DNA of 38,168 nt from a virus, in the IMG/VR virus record IMGVR_UViG_3300010885_004387, positions 1 to 38,168 of that record; one strand, 5' to 3'. The translations under genes and the position numbers were made by a program. The notes beneath the pieces were generated by a model. The model did no database searches. It was given only the letters and a program-made list of their open reading frames with translations, and was not told the origin of the DNA. Position 1 is the first letter of the stretch. Each line of letters begins with the position of its first letter. Shown in pieces: positions 1,591 through 37,615 of this stretch.

Positions 1591-1832
1591 AAGGCATTCT
1601 TGAAGAGCGTCAAACAATTTACGGCGACGCAAAAAAGAACTTTGCAATTACAGGGCGAATCTGGGGAGCGCTTCTTGGATCTGAAGACATTCCGGCGTGG
1701 AAGGTTGCTCTCATGCTTGACGCTTACAAATCTGTTCGTTGCATTGCTAATCCAGCGCATGAAGATTCTTGGCAAGACAAACTTGGCTATACCATTCACG
1801 GGCGAGAGATTGTAATTTCTAATGAGTCTTAA
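1569..1832 (+). CDS. DUF6378-family phage protein
   Basis: TTG 1569 is chosen because GGAG sits 7 bases upstream; TTG 1563 is too close to it. The 87-residue product matches the DUF6378 pattern: a YGD motif near residue 18, a central aromatic helix (GRIWGALLG), a Pro-Ala-Trp turn, an ALMLDAYKSVR helix, then a DSWQDKLGY segment. The family is widespread in phages, is all-helical and has no proven role. It overlaps the HTH gene and the following metallophosphoesterase, so the three are probably translated together. Confidence 0.72.
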   Translation: MSKETKLKGILEERQTIYGDAKKNFAITGRIWGALLGSEDIPAWKVALMLDAYKSVRCIANPAHEDSWQDKLGYTIHGREIVISNES

Positions 1833-2859
1833 AGATAAGTTTGAAGAATTGCCAGAAGAAGTTGAATCTACTGACGTGACTGAATTGCGTCGCGCTCTTA
1901 TGCGAACGCAAAAAAAGCTCATGGAAACAAAACAGAAAGTTGATGATCTTGTTGCTGCAACTCACCAAGCAGCCTACGACGCAACTCTTTCTTATGGAAA
2001 AATAAACCCAGTTGCGGAGCCAAAGGTTACAAAAGGGAACCAAAAGAAAGCTGAAGTTGCTCTGTGGCACATGACGGATTGGCAAGGCGCAAAGCGAACA
2101 ACCTCTTATGACTCGGAGATCATGCGCCGCCGAGTCTTAGAGTTTGCAGATAAAGCAATCCACATTACAGAGATCCAACGCGCAGATCACCCTGTGGACG
2201 AGTGCGTAATTATGTTTGGTGGCGACATGATTGAAGGGCTTTTCAATTTTCCGGGTCAAGCCTTTGAGATTGACGCAACTTTATTTGAGCAATACGTCAA
2301 TGTTTCTCGCCTCTGCGTTGATGTTGTGCGCGTAGCTCTGGCTAATTACAAACGCGTAAAAGTGGTGCCGGAATGGGGAAACCATGGGCGTATCGGGTCA
2401 AAGCGCGACAATGTGCCTCGCTCAGATAACTTTGACCGAATGTGTTATGAATTAGCGCGCCAGCTTCTTGCAGGAGAAAAGCGCTTGACTTGGCAAGAAT
2501 GCCCTGAAGACATTCAGCGCGTGGAGATTGGAAATTACCGCGCTCTGCTTATTCATGGAGACGAAGTTGGTAGAAATGGATTCGCTTCGCCCGGTGCCAT
2601 TGTTCAACACGCAAACAAGTGGCGCTCTGGCTCTTATCCTTGGGAGTTTCGCGACGTTTACATAGGGCATTACCATACTCACGCTGAGTGGTCTATGGCG
2701 AACGGCTTGGGATCTATTTATCAAACAGGCTCGACAGAATCAGATAACCGCTACGCAGGAGTTCTTCTTGCTTCAGCGGCAATCCCTTCCCAGCGCCTTC
2801 ATTTTGTAGATCCAGAAAAAGGTAGAGTTACCGCAGGTTACAAAGTCTGGCTTGACTAA
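1822..2859 (+). CDS. Calcineurin-like metallophosphoesterase
   Basis: 345 residues. After about 75 residues of charged, probably coiled-coil N-terminus comes a metallophosphoesterase core with the expected metal-binding blocks in order: HMTDWQG (in place of the usual D-x-H), GGDMIEG, GNHGR, LIHGDE and GHYHTH. This fold uses a two-metal site to hydrolyse phosphodiesters; phage members are candidates for nucleases or nucleotide phosphodiesterases. The first motif is unusual, with Trp-Gln where D-x-H is normally found, so metal binding at that site may differ. It overlaps the DUF6378 gene upstream, and its stop touches the start of the PP-loop gene. Confidence 0.82.
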   Translation: MSLKDKFEELPEEVESTDVTELRRALMRTQKKLMETKQKVDDLVAATHQAAYDATLSYGKINPVAEPKVTKGNQKKAEVALWHMTDWQGAKRTTSYDSEIMRRRVLEFADKAIHITEIQRADHPVDECVIMFGGDMIEGLFNFPGQAFEIDATLFEQYVNVSRLCVDVVRVALANYKRVKVVPEWGNHGRIGSKRDNVPRSDNFDRMCYELARQLLAGEKRLTWQECPEDIQRVEIGNYRALLIHGDEVGRNGFASPGAIVQHANKWRSGSYPWEFRDVYIGHYHTHAEWSMANGLGSIYQTGSTESDNRYAGVLLASAAIPSQRLHFVDPEKGRVTAGYKVWLD

Positions 2860-3680
2860 TGAAGCACGTCGTAATGTTTTCGGGCGGTATTGGATCTTGG
2901 GCAGCAGCAAAACTTGTAGCAAAAGAGCATGGCACTGAGAATCTTTATTTGGTTTTCACTGATGTAAAAGGCAAAGCAGAATCTCCGCACATAGGTGAAG
3001 ACGAAGATACTTACAGATTTATAGAAGACGCAGTAAAAAATGTTGGCGGTCATTACATTTATTTGAATGAAGGGCGCGACATTTGGGAAGTATTCAAGGA
3101 CAAGAAGTTTCTGGGAACAAGCCGTTTAGCTCATTGCTCTTTTCAATTAAAACAAATCCCTGCAAGAAAATGGCTTGAAGCAAACTGCGATCCGGCGGAA
3201 ACAGTAATTTACTTAGGAATTGACTGGACAGAAACTCACCGACTTCCAGCGATTGAACGGAACTACCTGCCATACATAGCCAAAGCGCCTTTAACCAATC
3301 CTCCTTACATGGATAAAGAGGCAATGATTTCATGGGCGCAAAGCGAAGGGTTGAAAACTCCGCGCCTTTATGATCTTGGGTTCAGCCACAACAACTGCGG
3401 AGGAGGTTGCGTCAAAGCAGGTCAAGCGCAATGGAAAAAATTGTATAACCTTATGCCTGAAAGATTTATGGTCTGGGAGCAGAAAGAACAAGAAATGCAA
3501 GAATACCTTGGTCGCCCAGTTGCCATTCTCAAAGAAACGCAAAATGGATTGACTCGCCCTTTGCCGCTTATAGAATTGCGGAGAAGAATAGATAGCGCTC
3601 CACAACTTATAGATGACTCAGACATAGGCGGTTGTGGTTGCTTTGTGGATAGGGAGGACAACAATGGAGAAAACGCTTGA
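2859..3680 (+). CDS. PP-loop ATPase, PAPS-reductase/DndC-like superfamily
   Basis: 273 residues opening with the PP-loop SGGIGSWAAAK at residues 8-18, which binds ATP in adenine-nucleotide alpha hydrolases. Further conserved-looking parts are a Cys in AHCSFQLKQIPARKW, a GIDWTE block, a CGGGC cluster near residues 180-184 and a C-terminal GGCGC. The superfamily includes PAPS reductase, tRNA thiolation enzymes and DndC of DNA phosphorothioation, so the enzyme probably adenylates a substrate, perhaps to add sulfur. The Cys clusters could hold an Fe-S centre or zinc. It follows the phosphoesterase at a 1-base overlap and precedes a small gene and the GP88 gene. The substrate is unknown. Confidence 0.78.
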   Translation: MKHVVMFSGGIGSWAAAKLVAKEHGTENLYLVFTDVKGKAESPHIGEDEDTYRFIEDAVKNVGGHYIYLNEGRDIWEVFKDKKFLGTSRLAHCSFQLKQIPARKWLEANCDPAETVIYLGIDWTETHRLPAIERNYLPYIAKAPLTNPPYMDKEAMISWAQSEGLKTPRLYDLGFSHNNCGGGCVKAGQAQWKKLYNLMPERFMVWEQKEQEMQEYLGRPVAILKETQNGLTRPLPLIELRRRIDSAPQLIDDSDIGGCGCFVDREDNNGENA

Positions 3681-3852: not shown

Positions 3853-4555
3853 CGAGCTGAGGCCAGACGGGATCTTTAACTGGTCGCTTCCTGCTTTTGC
3901 TATCAAATTGACCAACGGAGAAAACTTTAACGTCTGCCCTAATGCTGGCGCTTGCTCTTCTTTTTGCTATGCAAGAAACGGCACTTATTTATTCAGCAAC
4001 GTTCGCGGACGCCACATTGCAAACCTTGAATACATTTTGGAAGATCCCCAAGGCTGGTACAAACAAATGTTGGCGGAAGTTCAGCACCCAAAGAAAGCCG
4101 GAAAGTTCATTCGCATTCATGACGCAGGAGATTTCTTCTCAGAAGAGTACCTCAAATTATGGTTGGAAATTGCAAGGAATACTCCAGAGGTGACTTTCTA
4201 TTGCTATACAAAAGAAGTTGCTCTGTTCAAACGCATGGTAGAACCTAATTGCCCAGCTAATTTTCGGTATCTTTATTCTATGGGCGGCAAACAAGACCAC
4301 CTGATAGATCTTGAAAATGATCGCCACGCAGAAGTATTCCCAGACGACGCAGCGATTCTTGACGCTGGCTATGTTAGTCAAGACGCAAGCGATTTACTTG
4401 CGATTACTTTGGATAGCAACAAAATTGGAATCCCTGCCAATAACATTCGCCATTTCAACAAAAAGATAGCTGGAAGAACTTTTGGAGAATTACAAAGCGA
4501 AAGAGATTCTCAAAGAGAAAAAAAGCTTTCTAGTCAAAATACTGGATCTCAATAA
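3821..4555 (+). CDS. GP88-family protein
   Basis: The start is ATG 3821, with GGAGG 6 bases upstream; 244 residues. It contains the hallmark VCPNAGACSSFCYARNGTY (Cys 39, 45 and 49, spacing C-x5-C-x3-C) followed by a region that in the mycobacteriophage GP88 family reads much the same (FSNV, a histidine, then NLE). HDAGDFFSEEYL and FYCYTKEVALF blocks follow. The family has no established function; the three cysteines recall a metal or Fe-S site. Its 3' end runs 26 bases into the convergent proteasome-like gene. It sits in a unit with the PP-loop protein, so a joint redox or modification role is possible but unproven. Confidence 0.8.
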   Translation: MRPKKLLSQNSELRPDGIFNWSLPAFAIKLTNGENFNVCPNAGACSSFCYARNGTYLFSNVRGRHIANLEYILEDPQGWYKQMLAEVQHPKKAGKFIRIHDAGDFFSEEYLKLWLEIARNTPEVTFYCYTKEVALFKRMVEPNCPANFRYLYSMGGKQDHLIDLENDRHAEVFPDDAAILDAGYVSQDASDLLAITLDSNKIGIPANNIRHFNKKIAGRTFGELQSERDSQREKKLSSQNTGSQ

Positions 4556-5117
4556 CAACAGGCGGAGAGCAATAGGCGTTGTATTCGCACGCGTGTTCGA
4601 TTGCCTTTTTGATGATTTGTTTCGCTCGCTTGGGGTCGTCTGCGCATTCTTTGATCCCTTGGGCAAGCATTGAGCCAAGAGTAATGTCGCCTCCGCTTCC
4701 AAAAACATAAACGCCTCGCCTATCTCTATCCCAGCCGTAGTCATTGTGGACGGGATAGATAACGCCCTGAACGGCAACAAGGAACGCAGAATCATTCCAA
4801 GCAGATTCGCCTTCCCATTTTGCGTCAAAGCCGGAGTCAATGAAATGGTCGCGTAATTGAGGAATAAATACCTGCGTCATAAATTGGTCAAGCTTAGAAA
4901 TGTCAAGGAACTCTGGAGGCTGAGGAGGAATCCACCCCTGTTGGATCAGATTTCCGCCTCTTGTTGCGCCAGTTATTGCAAACAAGTAGTCCTTTTGATC
5001 GTCCCACAAAACCTTGGGATTGCTCAGGATAAACATAGAGCCAGAATCGTCCGTAGCGCGAGAATCTGCGCCAATTATGGCGAAGCCGTTCCCTTGAAAT
5101 CCTGCAAGTGTGGTCAT
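4530..5117 (-). CDS. Proteasome/HslV-like Ntn hydrolase
   Basis: 195 residues, the only gene on the minus strand. If the initiator Met is removed the protein starts at Thr, as HslV does, with no propeptide. Counting from that Thr, Asp falls exactly at position 17 in the motif ADSRAT and a Lys at 34 in PKVLW, matching the Thr1/Asp17/Lys33 catalytic set of proteasome beta subunits. A SGGD turn follows at residues 141-144 in VYVFGSGGD, then the long helices and a final VVIEIQYFD strand. Such proteins form peptidase rings; targets here could be host regulators or phage structural proteins. A ribosome site (AGGAG) lies just upstream. Actinobacteria have 20S proteasomes, but the N-terminus is more HslV-like. 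Confidence 0.8.
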   Translation of the reverse strand: MTTLAGFQGNGFAIIGADSRATDDSGSMFILSNPKVLWDDQKDYLFAITGATRGGNLIQQGWIPPQPPEFLDISKLDQFMTQVFIPQLRDHFIDSGFDAKWEGESAWNDSAFLVAVQGVIYPVHNDYGWDRDRRGVYVFGSGGDITLGSMLAQGIKECADDPKRAKQIIKKAIEHACEYNAYCSPPVVIEIQYFD

Positions 5118-5169
5118 GCTCCTATCCTCTCACGCCGAGGCGCGCGGAGAACAATTAGCCTTGAAATGC

Positions 5170-5245: not shown

Positions 5246-5818
5246 ATGGCAGGAAAGTTTGATCTCGAAAATTACGAAACGGTGGAGTCAAGATTACGCC
5301 GTCTTTATACAAAGTTCCCAGAAGCAAGAGTTCTCACGGATCTTGTTTTTCATGACGAGCGCCGCTTCATAATTAAGGCAGAAGTTTATCTTTCAACAGA
5401 TGATCTCAGCCCAGTAGCAACTGGATACGCAGAAGAAATTGTTGGAGCTTCTCCTGTCAACAGAACCTCAGCCCTTGAAAATGGGGAAACCTCTGCAATC
5501 GGACGCGCCATAAGCAACTCCGTTCTTTGCTTAGAGGCTCCAGAAGGCAAGCGCCCAAGCGCTCAGGAAATGGAAAAAGTTCAGCGCTATGCAAGCGAGC
5601 CACGAAAGCCTGTTGCTTCAGCCAAGCCAGCGCGCGTTTACAACGACCTAGAGATTGCCGACATTACGGCAATTATGGAAACAGTAAAAATCGCAACAAG
5701 TAAGGACGAATTGCGCGCTATTTATGCAGATTACGCAAAGCGAGATCTTCTTGAAGCAACAGTCAATGGAACAACGCTCAAAGATGTATTTTTGGCGCGT
5801 GTTCAAGAAATCTCATGA
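5246..5818 (+). CDS. Putative single-strand annealing/recombination protein
   Basis: 190 residues, with a good ribosome site (AAGGAAGG) 6 bases before the ATG. The N-terminal 100 residues form an alpha-beta domain with a KAEVYL strand and an ENGETSAIGRAISN motif at about residues 77-90. That motif recurs in a widespread phage family found beside SSB and RecB/Cas4-like nucleases. The C-terminus is a Pro/Ala linker followed by a helical tail. It is the first gene after promoter module A. Annealing of single strands during recombination and replication is the most likely role, from the motif and the neighbours only; a general DNA-binding role is also possible. Confidence 0.5.
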   Translation: MAGKFDLENYETVESRLRRLYTKFPEARVLTDLVFHDERRFIIKAEVYLSTDDLSPVATGYAEEIVGASPVNRTSALENGETSAIGRAISNSVLCLEAPEGKRPSAQEMEKVQRYASEPRKPVASAKPARVYNDLEIADITAIMETVKIATSKDELRAIYADYAKRDLLEATVNGTTLKDVFLARVQEIS

Positions 5819-6273: not shown

Positions 6274-7017
6274 GTGGATCAAGAGAGAACTGCCGTATCC
6301 CTTTTTGCAGGGATTGGAGGCTTTGACTTAGCGCTAGAGAGAGCAGGAATCCGAGTTGTAGCTTCTGTCGAAATAGATAAAAAGTGCCAAGCGATCCTCG
6401 CGAGACATTTTCCAAACGCAAAACAATTCAACGATGTAGAGGAGGTAACAGGTGAGCAACTTATTCAAGCAGGATTCAATCCTGCAAACGGAATCATTAC
6501 AGGAGGATTTCCTTGCCAAGATTTGTCCGTCGCTGGTAAGCGAGCAGGATTGGCAGGAAAACGGAGTGGACTTTTTTGGGAAATCTGCCGAATCATTGAC
6601 GAAACAAGACCGGAAACGGTTATCCTCGAAAACGTCTTTGGTTTACTTTCCTCCAATAACGGAAGAGACATGGCAGTTGTCCTTGAAGCGCTGGTCAAGC
6701 GCGGGTATCGCGTGGCATGGAGGGTGCTTGACGCTCAATACTTTGGAGTTCCCCAGCGACGCCGTCGAGTCTTCATTGTCGCAAGTCTTGGAAACGCAGG
6801 GAGATCACCTGAAGAAATACTCGATCTCCGAGAAAGCCGCACAAGGTATCTTGCGCAGAGCAAACAGAAGAGGGAAAACCCTTCCTCCTCGGCTCCAAAA
6901 GGCTCTCGAATCGTTAGTGGAGAAATTGTAGGAACTTTGCAAGCAAGTGATTACAAGTTTCCGCAACAACAACAAGCTCACGAAAATAAAATCGTCATTC
7001 AAGAAACAAAAAGTTAA
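6274..7017 (+). CDS. C5-cytosine DNA methyltransferase, N-terminal half
   Basis: GTG start, 247 residues. It carries the catalytic motifs of Dcm-type enzymes: motif I SLFAGIGGFDLA (SAM binding), PCQ with the nucleophile Cys81, ENV at 119-121 and QRRRRVF at 161-167. It then enters a target-recognition-like module (GEIVGTLQASDYK) and stops at a TAA that overlaps the next ATG (TAATG). Motifs IX and X are missing here and lie in the next gene in the -1 frame. The two products probably associate, as in the two-subunit enzyme M.AquI, or are fused by slippage at an A run before the stop. It would methylate phage or host DNA, perhaps against restriction. Confidence 0.88.
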   Translation: MDQERTAVSLFAGIGGFDLALERAGIRVVASVEIDKKCQAILARHFPNAKQFNDVEEVTGEQLIQAGFNPANGIITGGFPCQDLSVAGKRAGLAGKRSGLFWEICRIIDETRPETVILENVFGLLSSNNGRDMAVVLEALVKRGYRVAWRVLDAQYFGVPQRRRRVFIVASLGNAGRSPEEILDLRESRTRYLAQSKQKRENPSSSAPKGSRIVSGEIVGTLQASDYKFPQQQQAHENKIVIQETKS

Positions 7018-7052
7018 TGTTTTGGTACATAAAAAGCAGGAGGGCGCAAACA

Positions 7053-7559
7053 GTGGACGACGTTGAAACTTGGCTTGAAGGCGGAGTAACTCCCACTCTT
7101 AATCGCATGGATAACAGCGGAGAATCTTTTGCAACAGTCTTAATTATTGACGGCACAAGAGTTGGAGATGTAAGGGTTTATGCAGATCAGATTGCCCCCA
7201 CAGTAATTTCAAGATACGGAACAGGAGGAGGAAACGTGCCAATGATTTTCGACAATTCAGAGCCAACCGCTTACTCTCTTAGAGAGGACGCAAAAGCAAA
7301 CACTTTCAGCGCTACAGAAACAGATACGGCGCTGGCTTTACAGGCTCTCCAGCCCAGCGTTCAATCTCACCACGCACAGTTATTTATTGCAGAGCCACTT
7401 TCGGTTCGGCGATTGACCCCAGTGGAGTGCGAAAGATTGCAGGGCTTCCCTGATAACTGGACAGAAGGTCAAGCAGATTCAAACAGATACAAACAAATTG
7501 GAAACGCAGTCGCGGTTCCTGTCGTAAGTTGGATAATCGAGAGAATGGAAGAGAAATGA
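7053..7559 (+). CDS. C5-cytosine DNA methyltransferase, C-terminal half
   Basis: The chosen start is GTG 7053, which has a strong AGGAGGG nine bases upstream; ATG 7017 in the same frame touches the stop of the first half but has no clear ribosome site. The 168-residue product has two more recognition-like modules (GGVTPTLNR and QIAPTVISRYGTGGGN), then motif IX (RRLTPVECERLQGFPDNW) and motif X (YKQIGNAVAVPV) at the end. It has no catalytic motifs, so it should be inactive alone. Repeated PTL-type modules recall multispecific phage methyltransferases that read several target sites. Its stop overlaps the next start (ATGA). Confidence 0.82.
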   Translation: MDDVETWLEGGVTPTLNRMDNSGESFATVLIIDGTRVGDVRVYADQIAPTVISRYGTGGGNVPMIFDNSEPTAYSLREDAKANTFSATETDTALALQALQPSVQSHHAQLFIAEPLSVRRLTPVECERLQGFPDNWTEGQADSNRYKQIGNAVAVPVVSWIIERMEEK

Positions 7560-9499: not shown

Positions 9500-9837
9500 A
9501 TTGGGACAAGGCTAATTGCAAAGGCGCTCCCACAAATCTTTTCTACATGGTTGAGGAAAACCGTAAGCACAGCACTTGGATTGACGTAGGGATCTTGCGC
9601 ACAATTTGTGGAGGCTGCCCTATTCAAAAAAAGTGCCTTGCTTATGCCCTAGAGCACGAGATCTACGGCGTTTGGGGAGGCATGACAACGCAAGAGCGAA
9701 ACGCTTTCAATGGGAAAGGCTCTTGGGAGCGCTCGAAAGAGATAATTCTTGAGTTGGCGCAGTATGGTATTTCCATTACCGAGATCAAGGAGGCCGTCGT
9801 TGAGTATCAGAATCATGTCCGAAATCTGGAAAACTAG
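9478..9837 (+). CDS. WhiB-family Fe-S transcription regulator
   Basis: TTG start with CAGGAG 8 bases upstream; 119 residues. Four cysteines (C14, C44, C47, C53; spacing C-x2-C-x5-C for the last three) match the WhiB 4Fe-4S site, and GVWGG at 64-68 is the family turn that binds host sigma factor. WhiB proteins are confined to actinobacteria and their phages, making this strong evidence for the host. Phage copies can act on host WhiB regulons, as WhiB of mycobacteriophage TM4 does on septation and superinfection. The C-terminal 35 residues are a helical extension. It overlaps the nuclease gene and the initiator gene. Confidence 0.93.
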   Translation: MPRYSEINWDKANCKGAPTNLFYMVEENRKHSTWIDVGILRTICGGCPIQKKCLAYALEHEIYGVWGGMTTQERNAFNGKGSWERSKEIILELAQYGISITEIKEAVVEYQNHVRNLEN

Positions 9838-16122: not shown

Positions 16123-16145
16123 TAAAGTAATGTGTGGAGGCAAAC

Positions 16146-17459
16146 ATGGAGATTAAGTCGGTAAAGATTGAAGAAATAAAGCTTGACCCAAATAACGCTC
16201 GCAAGCATTCAGAAAAGAATCTTGCAGCGATCTCCGCAAGCCTTAAACAATTCGGACAAAGAAAGCCAATTGTTGTTCATAACGGAGTGATCCTTGCAGG
16301 TAATGGAACTTATTCAGCGGCTTGCAGTTTAGGCTGGGAAGAGATTTCTATTGTGGAAGTACCAAGCGAATGGGATTCAGACACGGCAAAGGCTTATGCG
16401 CTCGCAGATAATCGCACCGCCGAATTAGCGGAATGGGATACTGAGCACTTAGCAAAGCAACTCTTAGAGCTGGACGAAATGGGTTGGGAAGTCGGCGACC
16501 TTGGATTTGATGTTCCTGATAAGCCAAACGACAAAATAGAAAAGCCTTCGATCTCTCTTGCAGAGAAGTTTCTTGTTCCTCCTTTCAGCGTCTTAGATAC
16601 CAGAGCCGGATACTGGCAGCAGCGCAAAAGAGTTTGGTTGGATTATGGAATCAAAAGCGAAGAGGGCAGAAAAAAGAATCTGCTCAATTTCTCAAAAACA
16701 ATCAACCCTGAAGGTTTGACAAGTATTTTTGACCCTGTGCTTTGCGAGATTGCTTACCGCTGGTTTACAGCTCCAAAGTCGCAGATCCTTGACCCTTTTG
16801 CCGGAGGATCAGTGCGTGGTATTACGGCAGCCTATCTCGGTCATAATTACCTCGGCTTAGAATTAAGCGAAACGCAGGTAAAAGCGAATGAGCAACAGGC
16901 AGACGGACTCTTAGAAGATAAGAGAGGGTTGGTAAATTGGATAATCGGCGACAGTAATGAATCTCTTGACGCTCTCCCAGAGGATTTCAAAGCTGATTTG
17001 ATTATGTCTTGCCCTCCGTATGCTGATCTTGAAGTCTATTCTGACGATCCTGCCGACATTTCCAACATGCCATACCCAGAGTTTCTTGCAATCTACCGCT
17101 CAATCATTGCCAAGGCGGTAAGCAGATTGAAAGAAGATAGATTCGCCTTCTGGGTTGTCACTGAGGTTCGCGACAAAAAGACAGGCTTATACAGAAAGTT
17201 TGTTCCAGATACGATTGCAGCTTTTGAGGACGAAGGAATGAGCTTTTACAATGAGATTATTCTTCTCAGCCCTGTGGGTAATGCTGCTATGCGCGCAGGT
17301 AATTTCTTCACCCATAGCCGGAAGTTAGGCAGGATTCACCAGAATGTTCTTGTCTTTGTCAAGGGAGATCCCAAGAAAGCAACAGAGTTTTGCGGAGAAG
17401 TAGATTTCACCACCGAAAGCACTTTCTTTGTAGAGAATGAAGAAACGCCATGGGCTTAG
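16146..17459 (+). CDS. ParB-like domain fused to DNA methyltransferase
   Basis: ATG 16146 with GGAGG 5 bases upstream; 437 residues. Residues 1-95 are a ParB/Srx-like domain (IKLDPNNARKH, QFGQRKPIVV, LAGNGTYSAACSLGW, ALADNRTAELAEWD). The C-terminal part is an amino-methyltransferase: LDPFAGGSVRG (216-225) binds SAM and CPPY (289-292) is motif IV. Adenine enzymes usually read DPPY and N4-cytosine enzymes SPPY, so CPPY leaves the target base open. The ParB part may find DNA sites or use CTP/ATP as switch or nuclease; related phages carry such fusions. It is a candidate for modifying phage DNA before packaging, as the terminase follows directly. Confidence 0.82.
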   Translation: MEIKSVKIEEIKLDPNNARKHSEKNLAAISASLKQFGQRKPIVVHNGVILAGNGTYSAACSLGWEEISIVEVPSEWDSDTAKAYALADNRTAELAEWDTEHLAKQLLELDEMGWEVGDLGFDVPDKPNDKIEKPSISLAEKFLVPPFSVLDTRAGYWQQRKRVWLDYGIKSEEGRKKNLLNFSKTINPEGLTSIFDPVLCEIAYRWFTAPKSQILDPFAGGSVRGITAAYLGHNYLGLELSETQVKANEQQADGLLEDKRGLVNWIIGDSNESLDALPEDFKADLIMSCPPYADLEVYSDDPADISNMPYPEFLAIYRSIIAKAVSRLKEDRFAFWVVTEVRDKKTGLYRKFVPDTIAAFEDEGMSFYNEIILLSPVGNAAMRAGNFFTHSRKLGRIHQNVLVFVKGDPKKATEFCGEVDFTTESTFFVENEETPWA

Positions 17460-21994: not shown

Positions 21995-22276
21995 ATGGCA
22001 TTGCAACACATAAATAGTCAAGTTCAAACAACTGCAACTCTTATTGCAGACTTACCTGTAAGCATGGGGCGCAACATAGCGGTTCAGATTTACAACAATC
22101 ATTCTTCTGCAATTTACATTGGTAATTCAACGATCACTACTTCTGGTGCAACAATCGGACGCCCTATGGCTGCAACAAGTTCATTTCAGTTGTGGCTTAA
22201 CGGAGGAGATCAGATCTACGCAATTTCAGCAGCGCAAACTGCTGCTGGTGCTTGCATTGTGACATTCTCTGCATAA
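21995..22276 (+). CDS. Small beta-rich structural protein
   Basis: 93 residues with GGGAGAT as ribosome site. It is Ala/Thr/Ser-rich and predicted all-beta (IAVQIYNNHSSAIYIGN, SSFQLWLNGGDQIYAI), the look of a capsid-decoration or tail-tip sandwich domain. It sits between the gpF-like gene and the protease-scaffold gene and overlaps the latter at TAATG. A decoration or spike role is inferred from place only. Confidence 0.55.
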   Translation: MALQHINSQVQTTATLIADLPVSMGRNIAVQIYNNHSSAIYIGNSTITTSGATIGRPMAATSSFQLWLNGGDQIYAISAAQTAAGACIVTFSA

Positions 22277-24309
22277 TGGCAGACGGATTTGTTCCTCCAG
22301 CACCCGTTCGCGCTAACGCAAAAAGGGGACTAGAGCTTCGCGAAAAGCATGGTCGCGGAGGAACTGCTATTGGAGTAGCTCGCGCTCGCGACTTATCGAA
22401 TGGCTCTGCTCTATCGTTAGACACAGTAAAAAGAATGACTTCATACTTTGCTCGGCATGAGGTAGATAAAAAAGGCGAGGGCTGGGGAGTAGATAGCGCT
22501 GGCTACATTGCTTGGCTACTATGGGGTGGCGACGCAGGTTGGGCATGGGCAAAAAAGATCGTCCGCGAACAAGAATCTAAGGAGAAAGCCACAGTGAATG
22601 ATTTAACCACCGCCTTTTTTGAAATTGTAAAGGCTGATAAGCGCGAAGACGGAACCCTTATGGTTTACGGAAAGGCGACAGACGATTCTCTTGACATTGA
22701 CCAACAGATTTGTGACCCTGTTTGGCTTGATCGCGCTATGCCGGAGTGGTTTAAAACTGGAGGAAACATTCGCGAGCAGCACTCTTCAATCGCTGCTGGA
22801 GTAGCCAAAGAATACGAGAAGAAGGCAGACGGGCATTACATTCATGCGCTTGTTGTCGATCCTATCTCTGTCAAGAAAGTTGATACAGGCGTTCTCAAAG
22901 GCTTCAGTATTGGAATCAAATCCCCACGCGTTGTGCGCGATACCAAAGCAGTAAACGGGCGAATCATTGACGGCCAGATTGTCGAGGTGTCGCTAGTGGA
23001 TCGCCCAGCGAATCCCAACTGCCAACTTGTCCTTGCCAAGAGCGCAGAGGGCGAAACTGGAATGTGGAAAACTGAAGAGCTGATCGAAAAAGAAGAAACA
23101 AATTACGAAGGTATCAACCAAGGCGGAGAAAGTTCAGAGCCAGCCGATAAGGAACTTTACTCTCGCGTAAAAGCAGACGCAAAAGACAAGTTTGACGTTT
23201 ATCCTTCTGCCGTGGCTAACGCTTGGGTAGTTCGGGAATACAAAAAGCGCGGTGGAACCTATAAGCCAAAGGCTGAAAAATCTGCTGCATTTCGACTACA
23301 ATTACTGACGTTAGAAAACGACGCAGAGAAAAGAGCACTACTTATGAAGAATGCACAAGAACTCATTGAACTTTCTAAGACAATCGCTCCTGCGGACATT
23401 GTTAAGTTTGACCAGAAGCTATACGAAGACGCGCGACGCGCCCTTGCTCAACTTATTGTTGTCGAAGCCGGCGAAATGGACGCAGGTAGCAATGAAGAAA
23501 TGTCTATCGCGCACCTCTTATCAGCCGTTCACCATTTATTCGAGTGGTATCAGGGCGAAGTTGCAGAAGGCGAAGTTGTAGAGGTTGAAGACATTGAATT
23601 AGCAGCAAAGCCAAAAGATTCTGACGAAGAAATAGAAAAAGAATTGTGCGTAGGCTGCGAAAAATCCGAAAAAGAATGTATGTGCAAAGGTGGCTTTAAG
23701 GCTATGGAAAAGAAAGAAAAGAGCGCAGAAGGCAAGTGCCTTGAATGCGGTTGCCACGCCCCAGCCGATTCACACGAACGCGACGACGTATCAACTGCCG
23801 AAATTATTGCGCCAGACGCAACTCCTAAAAGCGCAGAGCCAACAGAAGTTGTTGAAGAGCTAAAGGATCAAGAATTGCCAGAGGCAGAAGAAGCGGCTCC
23901 GGCTGAAGAAGCTCCAGCAGCAGAAGAAGCTCCAGCAATCGAAGAAGAAAAAGTTTCTGAAGAGGCTAACTTTTCAGAAGAAGTAGAAGCAATCGTTGAG
24001 AAAGCAATAAAGAGTGCTACCGAATCTCTCAAAACAGAGATCGCCCAGTTAGCTAATGCAAAAGAGGCAGCAGTTAGCAAGGCGGTAGGTTTGGAGTCGG
24101 AGTTAGCAGTTGCAAAGTCTCTCGCGGTTGCCGGTGGCCCAAAACGGACTATCAAACCAGTAGATCATTCAACGAATGACCTCTTGGTTAAGGCAGCCAC
24201 ATACAAGGCTAAAGCAGACGCGTCAACTGATCCCGATTTAACAAAGGGATACAACCTTCTAGCAAAGAAATACTTTGCCGAAGCTGACGCAATAACTAAA
24301 TCCAACTAA
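22276..24309 (+). CDS. Prohead protease fused to scaffold
   Basis: 677 residues from ATG 22276. An N-terminal helical region (residues 1-100) precedes an HK97-type prohead protease: H169 (REQHSS), S211 (LKGFSIGIK) and E237 (VEVSLVDRPANP). Then comes a KADAKDKFDVYPSAVANAWV segment, a Cys-rich module (ELCVGCEKSEKECMCKG...GKCLECGCH), an acidic Glu/Ala run and a coiled-coil scaffold region up to the end. Fusion of protease to scaffold, removed by self-cleavage during maturation, is known in other phages. The Cys module in the middle is unusual. It is followed by the major capsid protein. Confidence 0.87.
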   Translation: MADGFVPPAPVRANAKRGLELREKHGRGGTAIGVARARDLSNGSALSLDTVKRMTSYFARHEVDKKGEGWGVDSAGYIAWLLWGGDAGWAWAKKIVREQESKEKATVNDLTTAFFEIVKADKREDGTLMVYGKATDDSLDIDQQICDPVWLDRAMPEWFKTGGNIREQHSSIAAGVAKEYEKKADGHYIHALVVDPISVKKVDTGVLKGFSIGIKSPRVVRDTKAVNGRIIDGQIVEVSLVDRPANPNCQLVLAKSAEGETGMWKTEELIEKEETNYEGINQGGESSEPADKELYSRVKADAKDKFDVYPSAVANAWVVREYKKRGGTYKPKAEKSAAFRLQLLTLENDAEKRALLMKNAQELIELSKTIAPADIVKFDQKLYEDARRALAQLIVVEAGEMDAGSNEEMSIAHLLSAVHHLFEWYQGEVAEGEVVEVEDIELAAKPKDSDEEIEKELCVGCEKSEKECMCKGGFKAMEKKEKSAEGKCLECGCHAPADSHERDDVSTAEIIAPDATPKSAEPTEVVEELKDQELPEAEEAAPAEEAPAAEEAPAIEEEKVSEEANFSEEVEAIVEKAIKSATESLKTEIAQLANAKEAAVSKAVGLESELAVAKSLAVAGGPKRTIKPVDHSTNDLLVKAATYKAKADASTDPDLTKGYNLLAKKYFAEADAITKSN

Positions 24310-36493: not shown

Positions 36494-37615
36494 ATGACTA
36501 CCTCATACCGTTATTTGTTCGCTGATCTTCTTACAAACACAATTATTGCTGAGTTACCCTTGACAGGTGTGTCTTTTGGATCTCAGCTCAATCAAGCAGG
36601 AACATTTCAAGGCCACATTCTTTTGTCGGGAATTGACACAGTAGGCTTTAACATAGCTAACGCAACCATTCCTGCAAAGTGTGCCGTTTATGTAGATCGC
36701 GACGGCGTGTTAGTTTGGGGCGGAGTAATCTGGAATCGCAGTTACCAATCTTCAAGTCAAACTCTGACCTTGAATGCGCGCGAGTTTGAGTCATACTTTG
36801 AACGGCGCAGGATTACCTCGGATCAAGTATTTACTAACGTAGATCAACTCAGCATTGCCCAAAACCTTATCTCGCTGGCGCAGGGCGTTCCATACGGCGA
36901 CATAGGGGTTGCAGTAGGCGTTGAATCTTCCGGCGTATTATTGTCTAGAAATTATTACGAATACGAAAAGAAAACTTATTACTCAGCTTTGCAGGATCTT
37001 TCGCGCGCTGAAAACGGCTTTGACTTCAACATTGACGTGGCTTATGACGGATCGGGAACGCCTACCAAAACACTTTCGCTGGGCTACCCAAGATTAGGCG
37101 AGGTCTATTCAGCGACAAATCCAAGCGCCTTGTTGTTTGAGTTTCCGGCTGGCAATGTGGTCGAGTATGAGTATCCAGAGGACGGATCTCTTGCAGCAAA
37201 CACTTTGTATGCGCTAGGCGCTGGATCTAATGAAGGAAAATTAGAGGCAACCTATCAAGACACAACATACCTAACCTCTGGCTGGCCTTTGCTTGAAGAG
37301 CAAGCAAACTATTCGGACGTGACTGACGCTGCCTATCTTGCGCAATTAGCTGAGGGGCAAGTGATTGCAGTTTCCTATCCGCCGACAATAATTCAGCTTG
37401 TTGTTCCTGCGTATGCAAGCCCTGTTTTTGGATCTTATTCAATAGGAGATGACGCCAGATTACGCATTACAGACGAACGCTTTCCTGCAACGGGTGTAGG
37501 TACTGCGGTTCAAGCTGGCTTGGATCAGGTTTACAGAATTGTCGGCATTCAAGTCCAACCCGGTGAAGCAGGCCCAGAGCGCGTAACATTGACTTTAACT
37601 GAAACTACGAACTGA
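36494..37615 (+). CDS. Minor tail protein, ReqiPepy6 Gp37-like
   Basis: 373 residues. The start (YRYLFADLLTNTIIAELPLTG), the LNQAGTFQGHILLSG block, VYVDRDGVLVWGGVIWNRSY and LNAREFESYFERRRI match the actinophage minor tail family known from ReqiPepy6 Gp37-like proteins. These form the tail-tip hub under the fibres. No catalytic motif was seen. Confidence 0.78.
   Translation: MTTSYRYLFADLLTNTIIAELPLTGVSFGSQLNQAGTFQGHILLSGIDTVGFNIANATIPAKCAVYVDRDGVLVWGGVIWNRSYQSSSQTLTLNAREFESYFERRRITSDQVFTNVDQLSIAQNLISLAQGVPYGDIGVAVGVESSGVLLSRNYYEYEKKTYYSALQDLSRAENGFDFNIDVAYDGSGTPTKTLSLGYPRLGEVYSATNPSALLFEFPAGNVVEYEYPEDGSLAANTLYALGAGSNEGKLEATYQDTTYLTSGWPLLEEQANYSDVTDAAYLAQLAEGQVIAVSYPPTIIQLVVPAYASPVFGSYSIGDDARLRITDERFPATGVGTAVQAGLDQVYRIVGIQVQPGEAGPERVTLTLTETTN

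Follow-up and report, generated by a model that had tools for sequence, protein, structure and literature searches.

Proteasome homologues are already known from phages, the described forms being PPH, AAH, and CPH (Fuchs et al. 2021, PMC8665760) and the family collected as PHROG 1040, 'peptidase HslV family'; among openly licensed papers, no report of a tested function for any of them was found. PPH, AAH, and CPH are Group-I-like, small, lack a propeptide, and occur in phages, all of which they share with the gene described here. PPH is about 140 aa long and has lost helix H2, whereas the present protein has 195 aa and retains H2, and no Actinobacteria-specific phages with AAH were found in that survey (PMC8665760), whereas a hydrolase of this kind is commonly carried by the actinophages examined here. 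The closest fold match is to a cellular protein, the beta-proteobacteria proteasome homologue BPH (5ovs, 5ovt, 5ovu), which has no propeptide and no known unfoldase, and which binds epoxomicin and shows no peptidase or casein-degrading activity in vitro (PMC5777263). Identity between BPH and the phage protein is only 18-21%, BPH is not phage-borne, and a tetradecamer has been shown for BPH only. HslV (ClpQ) shares with the phage protein the fold, the Thr-Asp-Lys set, a start with two threonines, and a GSGG motif. In the phage DNA, by contrast, no match to HslU or another AAA or AAA_2 ATPase is present, the protein is unmatched by the HslV family models, and the hosts probably lack HslUV.

The DNA analysed (the window) is a 38,168-nt stretch from IMG/VR virus record IMGVR_UViG_3300010885_004387, and the features discussed below are collected in Table 1. 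The hydrolase reading frame begins with ATG, and its N-terminal letters read MTTLAGFQGNGFAIIGADSR, the start also being written MTTLAGFQGNGFAIIGADSRATD. The frame is unlikely to be a chance occurrence, because 13 relatives at 61-99% identity were found in one scan and about 297 IMG/VR relatives matched two short patterns.

Table 1. Coordinates of the hydrolase gene and its neighbours in the window
Feature	Position	Strand	Remark
Ntn hydrolase, proteasome/HslV/BPH fold, N-terminal threonine	4530..5117	-	195 aa
Putative ribosome-binding site GAGAGG	5126..5131	-	Suggested by upstream sequences
Gene of unknown function, 250 aa	3803..4555	+	Tail-to-tail with hydrolase, overlaps its stop by 26 bp
Gene of unknown function, phrog_11717	5246..5818	+	Divergent from hydrolase
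Exonuclease	1822..2859	+	Marker gene for the hydrolase locus of these siphoviruses
Phosphoadenosine phosphosulfate reductase-like	2859..3680	+	Between exonuclease and hydrolase
WhiB-family transcription factor	9505..9705	+	Marker of an actinobacterial host

A preliminary description of this DNA had assigned the leftward frame to the proteasome/HslV group of Ntn proteases from a threonine after the initiator methionine, an Asp17, a Lys34, and an SGGD turn, and each of these features was recovered. By alignment, the catalytic residues are Thr2 (equivalent to Thr1), Asp18 (Asp17), Lys35 (approximately Lys33), and the oxyanion glycine Gly50 (approximately Gly47), such that Asp18 and Lys35 become 17 and 34 when Thr2 is counted as 1; GSGGD occupies residues 140-144, with Ser141 aligning approximately on proteasome Ser129. 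The assigned fold was also borne out. An AlphaFold2 model, built from an alignment of 33 window or IMG/VR rows, reached a pLDDT of 90.1 and a pTM of 0.88 and contains the alpha-beta-beta-alpha sandwich, including helix 73-94 (H2). Foldseek ranked BPH as the best match (9e-11) with HslV next, and VIA-align returned Z 19.0 for BPH (2.6 A over 175 residues) and Z 18.4 for HslV, pairing residue 2 of the model with residue 1 (Thr1) of both chains. Sequence profiles lead to the same group of proteins: a profile of 16 relatives matched HslV at 1e-16, BPH at 4e-13, and also the beta subunits of proteasomes, aligned Thr2 on the catalytic Thr1 of HslV and the beta subunits, and is less close to PrcB than to HslV and BPH. 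The protein is a divergent member of PHROG 1040, with a whole-length match (residues 1-191, E 2.5e-17) to a phage-borne family with the same catalytic motif, although identity to its relatives among annotated phage records is no more than 21-34%. The NCBIfam HslV models matched 9-10 of the 16 relatives at E <= 0.1, and the window protein was unmatched at that threshold.

Conservation was scored over 200 relatives (157 distinct), each residue being counted where sequence was present. Thr2 and Asp18 are unchanged in all 199 sequences that cover them, so that the nucleophile is retained throughout the close homologues, and Lys35, Gly50, and the two glycines that flank the position of proteasome Ser129 in the alignment (Gly140 and Gly142) are unchanged in 200/200; the distant phage protein pT24 has a serine as nucleophile. 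Beyond the catalytic residues, Pro65 is conserved in 199/200 and lies within a W-x-P-P element that follows a short helix (53-59) in the AlphaFold2 model, where confidence is about 74 for residues 51-60. A remodelled apical surface around W-x-P-P may be read from this model as a lead rather than a result. The dN/dS ratio is 0.034 for the window gene against its counterparts in loci L002 and L003, 0.03-0.07 for other near-identical pairs, and 0.10-0.14 for most of the more distant pairs, and the low values indicate that selection maintains the gene for what it encodes. The product is a real, constrained, and probably active N-terminal-threonine hydrolase. That the protein is instead an inactive relic or pseudoenzyme, as a sub-threshold score against the Pfam Proteasome model (E 0.22) and a partly changed second triad might suggest, is very improbable given a dN/dS of 0.03 and catalytic Thr, Asp, and Lys residues that, like the oxyanion Gly, never vary.

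The change in the second triad is itself a distinguishing feature of the window clade. The Ser129-Asp166-Ser169 network of 20S proteasomes is incomplete here: Ser141 is kept, and in the sequence alignment Asn180 and Cys183 substitute for Asp166 and Ser169, respectively. The two substitutions are perfectly linked, occurring together in 20 of 96 hydrolase sequences, all in the window subclade, and judged by the openly licensed literature this linked Asn/Cys substitution is new. The wider phage family mostly carries Asp and Thr/Ser at these two positions (Asp-x-x-Thr/Ser). In yeast beta5, a D166N mutant retains a reactive active site with activity reduced by about 60% (PMC4792962), and taken with the altered triad this makes catalytic activity of the window hydrolase likely, though not assured. 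The residues affected are ones that position the threonine amine, and one could therefore imagine a non-proteolytic Ntn enzyme, either a small-substrate amidase or a peptide ligase resembling connectase, which is a proteasome homologue turned ligase (PMC8665760); the inertness of BPH on standard peptides (PMC5777263) would fit such an enzyme. The model shows no counterpart of the two-helix insertion found between S3 and S4 of connectase, however, and most of the family retains the proteasome-like Asp-x-x-Thr/Ser, and we regard a ligase or amidase as unlikely.

The protein would be made ready for catalysis without processing of a propeptide. As the preliminary description had it, a propeptide of the 20S beta type is absent: the protein starts Met-Thr, and a GAGAGG element resembling a ribosome-binding site lies 9-14 nt 5' of the ATG (an 8-nt gap) and is conserved in the majority of the close relatives listed. 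The open frame in the window comprises 199 codons, and in loci L002-L004 an in-frame stop is found only four codons before the hydrolase start. Host methionine aminopeptidase would then remove the methionine and expose Thr2, to be activated by Lys35 and Asp18. Very probably the hydrolase is also the sole leftward gene of the window, as had been claimed, because the larger remaining minus-strand frames (177, 135, and 126 aa) share their DNA with rightward ORFs, the majority of which have PHROG matches. The further proposal of separate control fared less well. It can be inferred from the lone leftward position, but that position is specific to some phages, many relatives having the hydrolase in line behind the exonuclease or portal gene, and scans for consensus promoters and terminators near the gene gave no excess over shuffled sequence.

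Catalysis by proteins of this fold raises the matter of an ATPase partner, none of which had been visible in the preliminary description. Within the window neither AAA (PF00004) nor AAA_2 (PF07724) is matched, and because both are absent, hydrolysis would proceed without a dedicated phage ATPase. A hidden partner was considered and rejected: weak nucleotide-binding matches in podovirus relatives fall below the cut-off and do not adjoin the hydrolase. The single AAA match above the cut-off, in the 67.9-kb genome G008, lies about 10 kb from the hydrolase of that genome. Assembly into a ring or double ring may be expected by analogy with BPH, HslV, and the proteasome.

Many Actinobacteria possess a 20S proteasome. 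A beta-subunit fold in a phage with an actinobacterial host could thus interfere with or co-opt the host machine, joining or blocking 20S rings or docking on Mpa/ARC, and Mpa/ARC is a possible partner. Host HslU is an unlikely one, since HslV is listed as absent from Actinobacteria by Fuchs et al. (PMC8665760). On the other side, the sequence profile places PrcB farther away than HslV and BPH, and the catalytic residues are invariant, a constraint that a pure blocker would not need; interference with the host proteasome is accordingly judged improbable.

Assignment of an actinobacterial host is well supported by gene content. A WhiB gene is present in 13 of the 15 phages of the set, the window included, and among 14 control genomes the WhiB signal was found in Corynebacterium only; the minor tail protein encoded at 36494-37615 matched 200 phage records, all 200 of them from actinophages. 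Nanopelagicales are the likely host. For the product of the gene tail-to-tail with the hydrolase, a protein from a Streptomyces phage shows 51% identity, and the other relatives are mainly from mycobacteriophages. Two pattern scans of genome contigs found no cellular homologues of the close hydrolase family. Two other loci of the window deserve mention: a DNA methyltransferase is divided between two ORFs that abut (6274-7017 and 7017-7559), which correspond to consecutive parts of phrog_116 and represent either a real split gene or a frameshift, and at 16134-17459 one ORF encodes a ParB-like N-terminal region fused to a C-terminal region resembling a DNA methyltransferase. At L016:4001-4954, in the 129-kb lake actinophage DSL-LC01 (an Actinomycetia phage), a WhiB gene comes immediately after the hydrolase gene.

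Across relatives, the hydrolase gene is found in two recurrent settings. In 58 of the loci that had been selected by the hydrolase itself, a portal gene (phrog_104) ends just upstream on the same strand, and in the window clade the gene is reversed, with the exonuclease on one side and a divergently oriented gene on the other, a homologue of the 5246..5818 gene (phrog_11717) adjoining it across the clade; several relatives lack such a reductase-like gene between exonuclease and hydrolase. Since these loci had been chosen by the hydrolase, loci were also collected by portal and by exonuclease. Of 80 loci chosen by a podovirus-type portal, 3 were cut too short and 77 were scored, with the hydrolase next to the portal in 55 and clearly missing from 22, in which the following genes close up and the flanks are otherwise intact. 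The exonuclease-first set comprised the best 80 of 511 matches, and is thus biased to kin of the window; after removal of 12 that were too short, 56 of 68 loci in this best-80 set had the hydrolase within about 2.5 kb of the window-type exonuclease (35 antisense, or leftward, and 21 sense, or rightward), and 12 lacked it with at least 3 kb available. All of these numbers count contigs, often near-duplicates in IMG/VR, and not independent events. Ten longer records without the hydrolase at the slot have no copy elsewhere by a profile that finds six positive controls. Because the gene is leftward in 35 of the exonuclease loci and rightward in 21, its orientation is not fixed. It is an accessory gene with two recurrent positions, one after the portal and one next to the exonuclease, and it may occupy either strand.

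The same counts bear on a structural role. Placement immediately behind the portal, on the same strand and among structural genes, recalls the several phages in which a prohead protease follows the portal, and a head-maturation protease or an injected virion protein could be encoded at this position. The slot is optional, however, with the hydrolase missing from 22 of 77 portal loci that have otherwise intact flanks, and also from Streptomyces relatives such as Immanuel3; in the window group the hydrolase lies outside the structural module, and portal, minor head, and capsid genes are all present in the window itself, the product of 22252-24309 being a weak head-protease match. Weakened in this way by the portal-first selection of loci and by the hydrolase-less Streptomyces relatives, a role in head maturation or the virion has a low probability. 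Behind the portal and hydrolase genes of freshwater podovirus-type actinophages there is also a protein of about 1700 aa (L107:12661-17772 and homologues) that has no match among PHROG or PDB sequences.

Comparison of the hydrolase with its neighbouring genes indicates that different versions have been exchanged at these slots. Where the portal is 73-77% identical to that of locus L047, the hydrolases are mostly 80-88% identical, with exceptions at 75-76% portal identity, where the hydrolases are only 37-39% (phages E7 and F5) or 58% (L029) identical to the L047 version. E7 and F5 are the cultured 'Ca. Planktophila' phages LanE43-AprE7 and F5 (OX376640/1, PMC10202952), in which a version of the hydrolase lies directly behind the portal; the main text of the paper describing them mentions host-protein degradation in general terms only (PMC10202952). 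In a tree of 72 hydrolases, 13 changes are needed among four contexts (portal, exonuclease-antisense, exonuclease-sense, and other), and the well-supported branches alone force at least 8 changes for the portal context and at least 4 for exonuclease-antisense. On the portal tree the presence or absence of the hydrolase needs 6 changes, and on the exonuclease tree its three states need 5. Replacement of the gene, or its transfer from one lineage to another, has occurred several times, and the best reading is that it passes between podovirus-like and siphovirus-like phages, with one version substituted for another at the same site. That versions are repeatedly exchanged at fixed slots suggests a useful, host-dependent role. 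Judged by the openly licensed literature, the frequency of the gene in freshwater actinophages and its two recurrent slots with in-place replacement are new.

Taken together, we consider it reasonably likely that the hydrolase is a catalytically competent, propeptide-less protease subunit, probably ring-forming and ATPase-independent, with an accessory role in host takeover or counter-defence in freshwater actinophages. It would be carried as optional cargo at the exonuclease and portal sites, with distant versions repeatedly taking its place. A part in takeover or counter-defence is favoured because an accessory, exchangeable pattern is typical of genes with such functions, and distribution is the evidence from which that role is inferred. 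By analogy with BPH, which is inactive in vitro though it binds epoxomicin, the fold and triad would not in themselves prove general proteolysis, and since BPH cut no tested substrate, a narrow substrate range may be expected. A bolder proposal, offered tentatively, is that siphovirus-like and podovirus-like freshwater actinophages draw on a common pool of swappable proteasome-like proteases, that the version in a given slot is adapted to some defence or regulatory protein of the host, and that the Asn/Cys pair of the window clade marks a distinct specificity or chemistry. If true, this would amount to a large counter-defence family with proteasome-fold rings as the weapon. Phages that infect some of the most abundant bacteria of fresh water commonly carry the gene, and two of these phages (LanE43-AprE7 and F5) are in culture, which makes the question of what a phage does with a proteasome subunit directly testable.

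Relatives of the hydrolase are also carried outside phages, on rhizobial and Paraburkholderia symbiotic plasmids. Four of those examined do not lie beside nif genes, and a further relative, of about 31% identity, is located in the nif cluster of Sinorhizobium americanum plasmid B (L276:4001-4546), where the gene order is nifQ, hydrolase, an Fe-S assembly gene, nifS, and homocitrate synthase.
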